A DNA stretch of 32,797 nt. Origin: Selenomonadaceae bacterium. GTDB taxonomy: Bacteria > Bacillota > Negativicutes > Selenomonadales > Selenomonadaceae. Under the pieces are notes generated by a model. The model was given only the letters and a program-made list of their open reading frames with translations, made no database searches and was not told the DNA's origin. Positions within the stretch are counted from its first letter, which is position 1, and every line of letters starts with the position of its first letter. Where the stretch lies: contig JAFUZV010000040.1 in the NCBI GenBank assembly GCA_017476425.1, forward strand, positions 1 through 32,797, read 5' to 3'. Positions 3,350 to 30,769 of this stretch are shown here, in pieces. A program made the position numbers and the translations under genes.

Positions 3350-3364
3350 TTGAGGTGGAAAATT

Positions 3365-4129
3365 TTGGCACTGTCTCAAGACAAAACATATCCGCTTGAA
3401 AATATTAAACTGACTAAAGAATATATTGACGCGTGGAAAATTACCGGTCTGCACTTACAAAAATTATTCAACGAATATAATAAAATCGAAAATACTCAAG
3501 GAAATGGTTTTAATTGGCTGCGAACAAAAATTATTACGCCGTCTTTTGATTCGATGACATTCAGATATAAAAATCAAGTTTTTTCTATTCTGATCGATCT
3601 GATTGAATTTGATGATGATAAAGTAATTTCAAAGACGACTCAAGCGGCAAAAGATTTACAGATAAAAATTTGTGCTGAAAATAATTTGTTGCCGTGCCTT
3701 TTCAAAATCAAAATTCGTAATATGAAACCTGCAACAGGCAGCTGGAATTTATTCGACACTCGAACGGACAAGAAAATTAATCTCTTTGATCTCGTTTCTG
3801 ATACGCCGATTGAAATTTCTGATTGGGAACTTTCAAATTGGGCAGTCAGCACGGTTAGAAATTACCTTGAAAGAGACGGTAATAAAATTATTTCTTTCAA
3901 TGATTCGCCGGGAATTTCACCGAATGTATTTTTTGAGGATAAATCGGGCAATAAAAATTGGGTTTTAATTTCCGTCAATGGCAAGCATCAAAATTCAAAT
4001 GTTAAAATCAACGGTGATTTTCAAAAATTCTCTGCAAATGTTTTGATAAATCCTATCAATGCAGAAAAAATTTATCGCTCAAATGTAGCTCAAGTAAAAT
4101 ATAGCGGCTTGAAACCTATTAAAGATTGA
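3365..4129 (+). CDS. Conserved-looking protein of unknown function in the secA-prfB gap
   Basis: This 254-residue soluble protein is not one I can name. The best start is TTG 3365, because GAGGTGG (3352-3358) lies six bases upstream and the in-frame TTG at 3350 has no room for a site. No signal peptide or membrane segment is seen. Notable segments are a Phe/Tyr-rich strand region (MTFRYKNQVFSILIDLIEF), the motif AENNLLPCLFKI, a Trp-Asn-Leu-Phe-Asp-Thr segment near the middle, and a C-terminal VFFEDKSGNKNWVLISVNG stretch. It lies 15 nt before the Rpn nuclease gene and in the same operon as secA and prfB. It might belong functionally with the nuclease, but that rests on position only. Confidence 0.75.
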   Translation: MALSQDKTYPLENIKLTKEYIDAWKITGLHLQKLFNEYNKIENTQGNGFNWLRTKIITPSFDSMTFRYKNQVFSILIDLIEFDDDKVISKTTQAAKDLQIKICAENNLLPCLFKIKIRNMKPATGSWNLFDTRTDKKINLFDLVSDTPIEISDWELSNWAVSTVRNYLERDGNKIISFNDSPGISPNVFFEDKSGNKNWVLISVNGKHQNSNVKINGDFQKFSANVLINPINAEKIYRSNVAQVKYSGLKPIKD

Positions 4130-4144
4130 AAGAATGATCTAATT

Positions 4145-4930
4145 ATGAATGAAGAAGAAATTATTGCCAGGATAAAAAATTTGCGTTTAATTGATGATAT
4201 ATTTTTCAATAAAGTTATGGAGATCAGCAGAGAATGTTTAGAATTAGTATTGAGAATAATTCTTGACATTGATGATCTTCACGTTGAAGAAGTTATAACT
4301 CAATGCGATGTTCCGAACGTAATTTATAAAGGCGTTCGTTTTGATGTTTTGGCAACGGCTAAAGGTAAGATTTACGATATTGAAATTCAACGCTCCGATG
4401 AAGGTGCAATTCCACGCCGTGCAAGATATAATAGCAGTATGTTAGACTCTCGATCGCTTGCTAAAGGTGTTGAATATCAAAAATTGCCTGAGTCCTATGT
4501 TATTTTTATAACTGAACACGACGTATTGAAAAAGAATTTGCCGATCTATCATATTGAAAGAATGATCACGGAAACAAACGAATCATTTAATGATGCTAGT
4601 CATATAATTTATGTCAACGGCGAAAATCGTGATGACAGTAAACTTGGTAGATTGATGCAAGATTTTTTCTGCAGAGATCCGCATAAGCTGAATTATAAAG
4701 AGATCGCCGAATGTTCAATTTATCTTAAAGAATCGAAAGAAGGTGTAACGTTTATGAGTCCAGTAGTTGAAGAGATTTATAATCAAGGTCTTGCTGTTGG
4801 AGAAAAAAAATTGATAGATGTTATAAAAAATCTCATAAATGCCGGAATGCCTATTGAGTTCATAAAGAATGTAACAGGTTATAACGAAGAGCAGATTATT
4901 GAAATTATTGGACAAAATCAAAAAAGTTGA
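4145..4930 (+). CDS. Rpn family PD-(D/E)XK nuclease / transposase-like protein (copy 1)
   Basis: The 261-residue protein belongs to the Rpn / PDDEXK_2 group (recombination-promoting nucleases, often annotated as transposases). The N-terminal half carries the catalytic pattern GVRFDVLATAKGKIYDIEIQ, giving Asp67, Glu80 and Gln82. This is followed by IPRRARYNSSMLDS and the usual YVIFITEHD and IIYVNGENR segments. The last 58 residues form a separate helical domain (GMPIEFIKNVTGYNEEQI). An ATG at codon 204 with a good ribosome binding site could start that domain alone (see 4754-4930). The upstream ribosome binding site of the full gene is weak. It sits inside the secA-prfB operon, an unusual place for an accessory nuclease. 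It is about 60 percent identical by eye to copy 2 at 23610-24452 over the nuclease domain. Confidence 0.88.
   Translation: MNEEEIIARIKNLRLIDDIFFNKVMEISRECLELVLRIILDIDDLHVEEVITQCDVPNVIYKGVRFDVLATAKGKIYDIEIQRSDEGAIPRRARYNSSMLDSRSLAKGVEYQKLPESYVIFITEHDVLKKNLPIYHIERMITETNESFNDASHIIYVNGENRDDSKLGRLMQDFFCRDPHKLNYKEIAECSIYLKESKEGVTFMSPVVEEIYNQGLAVGEKKLIDVIKNLINAGMPIEFIKNVTGYNEEQIIEIIGQNQKS
4754..4930 (+). CDS. Possible internal small isoform of Rpn copy 1 (C-terminal domain)
   Basis: An in-frame ATG at 4754 (codon 204 of the host gene) is preceded by AAGAAGGTG (about 4737-4745) with eight bases to the start. It would yield a 58-residue protein beginning MSPVVEEIYNQG. The same codon position and the same ATGAGTCC start context recur in the second Rpn gene. 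In the E. coli Rpn family, internally translated C-terminal proteins have been described that neutralise the toxic full-length nuclease. That mechanism is borrowed by analogy here; the sequence shows only the start site and the domain. Confidence 0.5.
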   Translation: MSPVVEEIYNQGLAVGEKKLIDVIKNLINAGMPIEFIKNVTGYNEEQIIEIIGQNQKS

Positions 4931-4952: not shown

Positions 4953-5138
4953 ATGAGTCCGATTGTTGAAGAAATTTATAATCAAGGCAAAACTGAAAAT
5001 ATGTTTGAAATGGTGAGAAATTTTCTTAACGATGGAACACCGATTGAATTTATTAAAAAAGCAACCGGCTGGTCTGAAGAAAAGATCAATAAAATTATCC
5101 AAAAAAGCGATAACAAAAATAATGAGGAAGTGATTTAA
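4953..5138 (+). CDS. Stand-alone copy of the Rpn C-terminal domain
   Basis: The ORF encodes 61 residues starting MSPIVEEIYNQGK and containing DGTPIEFIKKATGWSEEKI, matching the C-terminal domain of the upstream Rpn (GMPIEFIKNVTGYNEEQI) at roughly half the positions. It has its own ribosome binding site, AAGGA (4939-4943) with nine bases to ATG 4953. A longer start at 4899 would overlap the Rpn gene and has no such site. It arose by a partial tandem duplication. Its TAA shares the A of the prfB ATG (TAATG), so prfB translation is likely coupled to it. By analogy with intragenic Rpn antitoxins it could act as a separate antitoxin or a divergent decoy. It could also be a leftover of a decayed second Rpn gene, but the frame is intact. 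Confidence 0.7.
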   Translation: MSPIVEEIYNQGKTENMFEMVRNFLNDGTPIEFIKKATGWSEEKINKIIQKSDNKNNEEVI

Positions 5139-6245
5139 TGCTTGAAGATTTAAAGCCGGAGTTGACAACACTCCGTGAAAAGCTGAATGAAATGGGGGAT
5201 TCACTTTGACGTTGCCAACAAGGAAAATAAAATTGCAGAGTTAGAATACAAGATGAGTGGTCCGACGTTTTGGGACGATCCTGATTCGGCGCAAAAGATC
5301 ACTCAAGAACTCAATGACATTAAAAGCGGCGTTGAAAATTACAAAAATCTCGTCAACAAATTTGAAGATGCTCAAACGCTTTACGATATGGGAATTGAAG
5401 AAGGCGATCAAAGTCTTGAAAGCGATGTTGCAAATGAAATTGAAGAGATCAAAGCCGGTCTTGAGTCATTGCAGCTTGAAATTTTACTTAGTGAACCTTA
5501 CGATGCTAACAATGCGATCTTGACACTTCACGCTGGAGCCGGTGGAACTGAAGCGCAAGATTGGACGCAAATGCTTTTGAGAATGTATACACGTTGGTCA
5601 GAACGTCACGGCTTTACAGTTGATATGGTTGATATTTTGCCCGGTGATGAAGCCGGTGTTAAATCAGTAACGTTATTTATCAAAGGTCATAATGCTTACG
5701 GATTTTTGAAGTCTGAAAAAGGCGTTCATCGACTTGTAAGAATTTCGCCGTTTGATTCAAATGCTCGCCGTCATACTTCATTTAGTGCTTGTGATATTAT
5801 GCCGGAGATTGATGACGCAGTTGAAGTTGATCTGAATATGGCTGATGTTCGAGTTGATACTTACAGAGCCAGCGGTGCAGGCGGTCAGCATATCAATAAA
5901 ACTTCTTCGGCAGTTAGAATGACACATTTACCGACGGGTATTGTTGTGCAATGTCAGAATGAAAGATCGCAGTTGCAAAATCGTGAACAATGTTTGAAAA
6001 TGCTCCGTGCAAAACTTTTTGAAATGGAACTTGAGAAAAAAGAAGATGAGATCGCAAAACTTGAAGGTGATCGAATGAAGATTGAATGGGGCAGTCAGAT
6101 CAGATCGTATGTCTTTCAACCTTACACATTGGTTAAAGATTTACGAACAGGTGAAGAGACAGGCAATGTTCAAGCTGTTATGGACGGCAGCATTGACAAT
6201 TTTATTCGTTCGTTTCTTGCCGCTAAAGTTGGTCAGAAGGCTTGA
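5138..6245 (+). CDS. prfB: Peptide chain release factor 2 (programmed +1 frameshift)
   Basis: RF2 reads UAA and UGA stop codons. The gene starts at ATG 5138 (GAGGAAGTG site upstream) with MLEDLKPELTTLREKLNEMGDSL, hits an in-frame TGA at 5207-5209, and continues in the +1 frame as DVANKENKIAELEYK, as usual for prfB. The full product is 368 residues. The peptide-release motif GAGGQHIN and the codon-recognition tripeptide SPF (within RISPFDSNARRHTSF) are both present. It is translationally coupled to the preceding small Rpn-domain gene through TAATG. The next gene begins 10 nt after the stop. Confidence 0.97.
5194..5210 (+). promoter_or_regulatory. RF2 autoregulatory frameshift site
   Basis: The slippery CTT TGA C (5204-5210) is preceded by an internal Shine-Dalgarno-like GGGGG (5194-5198). 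When RF2 is scarce the ribosome slips +1 on CTT and makes full-length RF2. The purine run is five bases from CTT, against three in the classic E. coli site. Confidence 0.92.
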
Positions 6246-23609: not shown

Positions 23610-23843
23610 TTACTCAACAGCAATATCATTTTGTTTAGCAATATCTTTGATTTTGTCAACCGTGAGCTTTGTAAATTTTGAAATCATTTCGATAGGTTGA
23701 TTAGCCTTAAGCATCTCAATAATAATTTCGGTTTTAGCTTTCAACTCACCACGTTTTTCGCCACGTTTTTCACCACGTTTTTCACCACGTTCTTCACCAC
23801 GTTTTTCGCTATCGTCAAGCCACTCTTTCAAAATCGGACTCAT
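23610..23843 (-). CDS. Possible internal small isoform of Rpn copy 2
   Basis: On the minus strand GGAGG (23855-23851) is followed by seven bases and an in-frame ATG at 23843, codon 204 of the Rpn gene. The 77-residue product would start MSPILKEWLDDSEKRG and hold the GEKR repeat and the C-terminal domain. The site is stronger than the one for the full-length gene, which would favour excess small protein, as expected of an antitoxin. Translation is inferred from the site. Confidence 0.6.
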   Translation of the reverse strand: MSPILKEWLDDSEKRGEERGEKRGEKRGEKRGELKAKTEIIIEMLKANQPIEMISKFTKLTVDKIKDIAKQNDIAVE

Positions 23844-24452
23844 TTTAATCCCTCCAAATTCATCATTTTTGATGTAATCTGTACGATTAGCAAGAATTGA
23901 ATAATTCATTTCGTTAGGATTAGCGCAGAAAAAATCCTGCATCAATTTTCCAAGTGCAGTATCATCTCTATTTTTGCCGTTGACGTAGATTATATAACTT
24001 CCATCATTAAACGCTTTGCCTGTCTCTTCAACAACTCGCTTAATATGATACAGCGGCTTATTTTCACCAATAACATCATTTTCAGTTATAAAAATAACGT
24101 AGCTTTCAGGCAATTTATCATAATCGACACCGGCTCTAAGTTCCTTTGAATCAAGCATACTTGCATTGTACCTTGCACGGCGTGGAATTGCACCTTCATC
24201 ACTTCGTTGAACTTCAATGTCATAAATTTTACCATTAGAAGTTGCAAAGACATCGAATCTGACACTGTGATATTTGAAGTTCGCAATATTTCTTTGTGTT
24301 GAGACTTCAATAACTTTTAAATCTGCGTCGTCAAGAATAATTTGCAGGATCAATTCAATACACTCCGGCGCACCATCCATACAAATATTAAAAAATATAT
24401 CGTCCATAAGACATAACTGTTGAATTTGTTCATTAAATTTTTGTTCGTTCAT
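23610..24452 (-). CDS. Rpn family PD-(D/E)XK nuclease / transposase-like protein (copy 2)
   Basis: The 280-residue paralogue of the gene at 4145 has the same catalytic layout: Asp67, Glu80 and Gln82 in SVRFDVFATSNGKIYDIEVQ, then IPRRARYNASMLDS and YVIFITENDV. The C-terminal part differs: after codon 204 it has a Gly-Glu-Lys-Arg repeat array (RGEERGEKRGEKRGEKRGE) before the final helical domain (NQPIEMISKFTKLTVDKIK). The internal ATG at codon 204 has a perfect ribosome binding site (see 23610-23843). The ribosome binding site of the full gene is weak. It lies between asd and a decayed gene. Rpn proteins act in recombination or phage defence. Confidence 0.88.
   Translation of the reverse strand: MNEQKFNEQIQQLCLMDDIFFNICMDGAPECIELILQIILDDADLKVIEVSTQRNIANFKYHSVRFDVFATSNGKIYDIEVQRSDEGAIPRRARYNASMLDSKELRAGVDYDKLPESYVIFITENDVIGENKPLYHIKRVVEETGKAFNDGSYIIYVNGKNRDDTALGKLMQDFFCANPNEMNYSILANRTDYIKNDEFGGIKMSPILKEWLDDSEKRGEERGEKRGEKRGEKRGELKAKTEIIIEMLKANQPIEMISKFTKLTVDKIKDIAKQNDIAVE
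23746..23809. repeat. 12-bp tandem repeat in Rpn copy 2
   Basis: About five copies of a 12-base unit (CACCACGTTTTT on the plus strand) encode the Arg-Gly-Glu-Lys/Glu array. One unit adds four residues without changing the frame, so length can vary between strains. Confidence 0.85.
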
Positions 24453-30345: not shown

Positions 30346-30769
30346 ACTCATTTTAATTTAATTCTGATTGCAACATTCACTATAATCCAAAAACAATAAT
30401 TTATCAAATCTCATCGTAATGTGACGATTATTCTTTATCTTATTGAAATATCTCTCAACTATATTTCTCTGCTTGTATATTTCTTTATCAAATTGAACCT
30501 TGCAATAAGTTGAGTCTATTTCAATAAGGACTGATTTACCAGAGTTTAATTCTTTAAGTATGTTGATAAAAATATCTTGTTCGATCCATTGTCGGCATTT
30601 GTGATAAATACTATTCCAATTAACATAAGTTCTCAATATCCAAAAGATGGCGTTATTATCAAGTGGTGGTCTGCCTGTATTTTTGGCTTTTAAATGTTTG
30701 TCAAATTGTTCGGTTGTCAAATTAAAGAGATCAACTCTTGTTTTATTTTTATAGTTTACCAATACGCTC
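30332..30769 (-). mobile_element. Internally deleted IS5-like element, 438 bp
   Basis: The ends are GGGACTGTTGGTAAACT (30332-30348) and, inverted, GAGCGTATTGGTAAACT (30769-30753), sharing a perfect TTGGTAAACT. A TA dinucleotide flanks both sides (30330-30331 and 30770-30771), as expected of a TA target duplication. The single gene between is a shortened transposase. The element is about half the size of a full IS5-type element and is probably non-autonomous. Confidence 0.7.
30358..30762 (-). CDS. IS5-like transposase fusion with the catalytic middle deleted
   Basis: The 134-residue frame starts at TTG inside the terminal repeat. The first 90 residues match the N-terminal part of IS5-type transposases (LTTEQFDKHLK, the GRPPLDNNAIFWILRTYVNW region, then SIYHKCRQWIEQDIF) to the first catalytic Asp in LIEIDSTYCK. 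It then jumps to the C-terminal part (YKQRNIVERYFNKIKNNRHI and RFDKLLFLDY) with the catalytic Glu. The segment that normally holds the second Asp is missing, so activity is not expected. The frame stays open across the deletion. Confidence 0.72.
   Translation of the reverse strand: MVNYKNKTRVDLFNLTTEQFDKHLKAKNTGRPPLDNNAIFWILRTYVNWNSIYHKCRQWIEQDIFINILKELNSGKSVLIEIDSTYCKVQFDKEIYKQRNIVERYFNKIKNNRHITMRFDKLLFLDYSECCNQN

Follow-up and report, generated by a model that had tools for sequence, protein, structure and literature searches.

The window analyzed here, a stretch of 32,797 nt from a Selenomonadaceae bacterium (contig JAFUZV010000040.1 of GCA_017476425.1, which is assembled in 237 contigs and estimated to be 5.8% contaminated), encodes two rpn genes on opposite strands. 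Rpn gene 1 (4145..4930, plus strand) and rpn gene 2 (23610..24452, minus strand) encode full-length proteins (RpnL) of 261 and 280 amino acids, respectively, which share one architecture: a PD-(D/E)XK nuclease followed by a C-terminal three-helix domain. Both belong to the Rpn (COG5464-type) nucleases: they match PF12784 (E 4.9e-12 and 46.5 bits for gene 1; E 3.4e-11 and 43.8 bits for gene 2; cut-off 27.4), and both pass the TIGR01784 model (60.3 bits for gene 1, and 68.6 bits over residues 17-271 for gene 2; curated cut-off 52.1). The predicted catalytic-type residues of gene 1 are D67, E80, and Q82; D67, I79, E80, and Q82 are invariant across 36 homologues. AlphaFold models gene 1 (pLDDT 87.7) as a nuclease that extends until about residue 196 and is followed by a long helix (198-232) and two shorter ones (237-244 and 248-260). 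A Foldseek search with this whole model returned weak PD-(D/E)XK matches at the top, the best being the McrC and XisH nucleases; among the matches listed, there was none with E < 0.001 and none to RpnA-S. A PDB sequence search with the full-length protein as query and a search of the PADLOC defence models gave no match. The C-terminal part of gene 2 contains ERGE/EKRG tetrapeptide repeats. Elsewhere in the window, an open reading frame at 30358-30762 (minus strand) resembles, on inspection by eye, a partial IS5-type transposase.

The first-pass annotation of this DNA had reported an internal start at codon 204 of both genes, and in-frame ATGs are indeed present there, at 4754 (plus strand) and 23843 (minus strand), each in the context ATGAGTCC (Met-Ser-Pro). 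Its account of the upstream sequence, in which both starts were preceded by AAGAAGGTG and by a perfect GGAGG at seven bases, had merged the contexts of the two genes. Gene 1 reads AAGAAGGTG-TAACGTTT-ATG, with a non-canonical Shine-Dalgarno (SD)-type sequence (core AGGTG; 4737..4745, plus strand; duplex energy -8.9) 8 nt 5' of the internal ATG and without GGAGG. Gene 2 reads TTGGAGG-GATTAAA-ATG, with GGAGG (23851..23855, minus strand; duplex energy -10.2) at 7 nt and without AAGAAGGTG. The predicted intragenic products (RpnS) comprise 58 amino acids for gene 1 (4754..4930, plus strand) and 77 for gene 2 (23610..23843, minus strand). As had also been noted in the first pass, the paralogues diverge past the domain border while keeping this start, with 64% identity in the nuclease and 32% in the last helices. 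By definition of the RpnL/RpnS kind, tetrapeptide repeats, where present, begin 8-20 residues past the internal start; those of gene 2 begin at about residue 14, and gene 1 has no clear repeat, an absence that the definition permits. When the SD of each gene was compared on its own with a set of 1000 synonymous recodings that preserve its peptide, the result was not significant for gene 1 (p 0.28) and marginal only for gene 2 (p 0.087). Scanning for promoters from which a transcript could start inside the gene gave 12 sites, compared with 8.3 +/- 2.9 in shuffles, an uninformative difference.

A profile of 37 RpnS sequences, delimited by their predicted starts, matches the crystal structure of E. 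coli RpnA-S (7TH0_A) with E 8.5e-8; the corresponding value for a single RpnS sequence is 0.2. The three-helix plan of RpnA-S is alike in the C-terminal model of gene 1, in which Met204 lies near the start of the long helix. The last-helices part of the same profile also has five tandem matches in another solved protein, CAP REPEAT (8vd6; E 2.4e-23).

The gene-within-a-gene arrangement of RpnL and RpnS was described in E. coli by Zhong et al. (2023; PMC10327210), and both window genes belong to this already known kind. Like them, E. coli RpnA-E and RpnP2 have a TIGR01784/PF12784 nuclease, a variable C-terminal three-helix domain, and, where the two domains meet, an internal start preceded by an SD of its own; the small proteins also carry tetrapeptide repeats close to their N-terminal end, a trait shared by gene 2 and not by gene 1. 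The nuclease and C-terminal sequences of the window genes are far diverged from the E. coli ones. Beyond E. coli itself, the closest experimental support comes from a Gram-positive-type rpn gene of another organism, C. difficile, which has a predicted ribosome binding site and an internal start, and from which RpnS was made when tested in E. coli (PMC10327210). The layout is thus present in a Firmicute-type genome, as the first-pass annotation had put forward, but is not new there, since the C. difficile RpnS had already been shown. We found no follow-up on this topic in the literature after Zhong et al., and no earlier statement of a class-wide start-codon test, of the frequency of downstream copies, of an SD-to-stop unit, or of a length mismatch (supplements and subscription papers lay outside the scope of this search); priority for the family-wide results is not claimed.

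Given the p-values of 0.28 and 0.087 for the single genes, 51 homologues were aligned, drawn from the genome of the window, from the genus to which it belongs, and from further bacteria, whose records bear the titles Eubacteriales, Lachnospiraceae, Erysipelotrichaceae, Spirochaetia, Synergistaceae, and Planctomycetaceae. One row (L050) was moved by one codon by hand, as the aligner had put its ATG one column early. The column of Met204 holds a start codon in every homologue (ATG in 45, TTG in 4, and GTG in 2), and the border residue at the protein level is accordingly Met, Leu, or Val; homologues without the SD and ATG, which had been proposed as the observation that would count against the internal start, were not encountered. 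The mean SD duplex energy is -11.35 at the border starts vs. -2.44 at the 342 further ATGs inside these genes (p 2e-30, a value that, like the others from this alignment, overstates independence, the homologues being related by descent). An SD match of at least 5 nt occurs at 86% of the border starts and at 3.5% of the other internal ATGs. Two of the 51 homologues are without a match of at least 4 nt at good spacing, and in both the duplex energy is still strong.

Such a pattern might also result from constraint on the protein only, if Met and a Gly/Glu-rich linker were needed at the border and the SD-like DNA arose by chance. Such an explanation suffices for gene 1 taken alone (p 0.28). The SD score is also pushed up by EGG/KGG peptides, the mean of synonymous shuffles (-7.09, sd 0.29) being stronger than the background of -2.44. 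These peptide-keeping shuffles nevertheless fall far short of the real mean (z -14.5). Furthermore, wherever Leu or Val occupies the border, it is written with a start-type codon (6 of 6, p about 2e-4): Leu is TTG in all four cases (background 26%) and Val is GTG in both (background 22%). The distance from the SD to the ATG also takes at least two registers, above differing peptides, so that the SD shifts as the peptide changes, and the copied units described below start at the SD. Protein constraint is therefore a very improbable explanation for the family. Because the start codon is kept through changes of residue and the SD exceeds that of the shuffles, the DNA is maintained as a start site and not for the protein alone. 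The DNA-level comparison suggested in the first pass has thus revealed an SD and start conserved beyond protein constraint, and, together with the TIGR01784 assignment, it supports the proposed gene-within-a-gene layout at the level of the family.

A wider, alignment-free survey covered 200 non-redundant Rpn genes, most of which belong to the class of the window and among which are E. coli rpnC and rpnE, with internal starts predicted from SD energy (strong defined as E <= -8). A strong in-frame SD and start was located in the C-terminal third of 86% of these genes, vs. 21% for other frames (p 2e-54). The internal SD was stronger than that of the best full-length-start candidate in 36 of 44 genes, with the candidate picked in favour of the full-length start. 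An excess of RpnS over RpnL is predicted from this generally stronger internal SD; RpnS in excess has been seen in E. coli (PMC10327210).

The C-terminal domains have a mosaic distribution. Between gene 1 and gene 2, the last helices are 32% identical in protein and 30% in DNA, which amounts to no detectable kinship. Gene 1 and a locus on another contig of the same genome (C148) are, conversely, 34% identical in the nuclease and 60% in the last helices. Among 156 genes, same-genome pairs share their last helices more often than cross-genome pairs at equal nuclease distance, with a significant excess in three of four distance bins; in the most distant bin, 11.5% of same-genome and 1.4% of cross-genome pairs exceed a score ratio of 0.4. 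On these sequence comparisons, the pattern suggests that C-terminal modules are exchanged within genomes.

A third ATGAGTCC, overlooked in the first pass, occurs at 4953, 22 nt past the stop of gene 1, where it opens a free-standing second RpnS cistron of 61 amino acids (MSPIVEEIYNQG...; 4953..5138, plus strand). This frame has its own start and SD (energy -11.4) and is homologous to the C-terminal domain of its neighbour, the features by which a separate cistron is recognized, and its TAA stop overlaps the ATG of prfB (TAATG). Its overall identity to the C-terminus of gene 1 is 50%: the front half matches gene 1, and the back half is 84% identical to the RpnS of the C148 locus vs. 48% to gene 1. 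The two members of the window pair differ by 3 residues in length before the last helices. The cistron has no match to PF14261 (DUF4351, the free-standing rpnS in some species), and there is no RpnS copy downstream of gene 2. Single rpnS copies directly 3' of the gene are likewise found in E. coli, at rpnE-ypaA (rpnE-S) and rpnC/rpnC-S, and the products of ypaA and rpnE have been shown to be made (PMC10327210). In rpnE, the copied unit begins 12 nt 5' of the internal start, and the repeat region of the rpnE-ypaA pair differs by one tetrapeptide; the window copy departs from these E. coli cases in its 3-residue length difference and in a back half nearer to another locus.

The neighbouring prfB (release factor 2; 5138-6245, plus strand) appears to keep its programmed +1 frameshift, with CTTTGAC near 5203-5209. 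In several relatives of the genus (L247, L248, and L254), secA lies close 5' of prfB, so that rpn gene 1, the RpnS copy that follows it, and an uncharacterized gene at 3350-4129 have the look of an insertion between the two. An rpn gene is also present upstream of prfB in genome G007 (L246/L080).

Downstream copies of this type recur among the relatives. An RpnS copy is located near the stop in 29 of 188 Rpn genes with enough downstream sequence (about one in seven), and the E. coli rpnE/ypaA pair, a positive control, was recovered by the survey. The copied DNA starts 0-30 bp 5' of the internal start in 19 of these 29, further upstream in 6, and only inside RpnS in 4. Breakpoints are thus clustered, with 19 of 25 lying within 30 bp of the internal start (null expectation 4.8% each, p 1e-20), and 18 of the 19 copies concerned begin no more than 19 nt past the stop. 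The copied unit therefore corresponds to the RpnS cistron with its SD, which is independent evidence for the internal start as a gene boundary. Alternatively, the upstream parts of longer copies may have eroded, with selection acting only from the SD onward, which would also support function. The length of the repeat region, read by hand off the alignments and then tested, differs in 20 of 24 compared pairs, by multiples of four residues in 19 of these 20. In the genome of the window, downstream RpnS copies also occur on contigs C236, C148, and C99 and, at a contig end, on C68. Among these loci (L076, L077, L079, and L075), the copies have a changed repeat number at C148 (+16 residues), C99 (-4), and C236 (-4), and the copy at C68 is shared in its front half and unrelated in its back half. 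One rpn match appears with equal score on contigs C203 (L074) and C236 (L075) of G000 and is possibly an assembly duplicate. We also considered whether a downstream copy relaxes the internal start, and rejected this, as the internal SD is equally strong in genes with and without a copy (p 0.96).

We consider, with a probability of roughly 0.85, that genes 1 and 2 are rpnL/rpnS genes-within-genes in which RpnS restrains RpnL, and that the cistron after gene 1 is a duplicated SD-to-stop unit. The sequences show the conserved start and SD, the kinship of the small product to RpnA-S, and the recurring downstream copies; from these we infer the following for translation, for the inhibition of RpnL, for a part in phage defence, and for what the copy does. 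RpnL, the full-length protein, would act as a toxic or defensive DNA nuclease of the PD-(D/E)XK type. Translation would also begin at the SD-equipped ATG of codon 204, yielding the C-terminal three-helix RpnS alone, which would pair via its first helix with the same domain of RpnL and hold the nuclease off. With an internal SD that is generally the stronger, RpnS would be in excess. The free-standing cistron would have arisen by duplication of the SD-to-stop unit and, because its back half resembles another rpn locus, probably recognizes a different RpnL or stores variants.

The purpose of the downstream cistrons in general is less certain, and several accounts compete. They may be functionless debris of tandem duplication at a recombination-prone locus, where only the internal start matters; copies that are frameshifted (L081 and L083) or otherwise frameshifted or truncated (L236 and L190) indicate that not all are functional and that some decay, and Zhong et al. 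suggested that RpnL itself may provoke tandem-duplication events (PMC10327210). This account is possible and not favoured, in that most near-stop copies retain an open frame with SD and start, the pooled dN/dS of gene/copy pairs is 0.30, the breakpoints are concentrated just 5' of the SD, and the ypaA product is made in E. coli. A copy could instead provide a higher dose of the same antitoxin for the adjacent RpnL, being adjacent, co-oriented, and similar to its neighbour in the front half. One extra tetrapeptide, however, abolished inhibition in E. coli RpnC (PMC10327210), and if this rule is general, most of the length-mismatched copies should not fit their neighbours; the back half of the window copy resembles that of another locus, and the internal start is no weaker where a copy is present, so that the copy does not replace it. 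A dosage role is for these reasons rather unlikely, slightly more so than debris. About as tentative as the debris account is the proposal that the downstream cistrons serve as cassettes with altered specificities. By changing their repeat number or swapping the last two helices, such SD-to-stop copies might neutralize RpnL variants of foreign or ancestral origin or those of a different locus, or might recombine new specificities into the toxin gene.

Our preferred reading, of RpnL and RpnS encoded by one gene, extends a claim based on genes of E. coli and a single C. difficile gene to a DNA-level rule that can be tested across a bacterial class, namely that selection keeps the internal starts of the Rpn domain border in their role as starts. 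The frequent and mostly length-mismatched downstream copies pose a further question: if judged by the E. coli RpnC result, such an antitoxin should misfit its neighbour, so why would a genome retain it?
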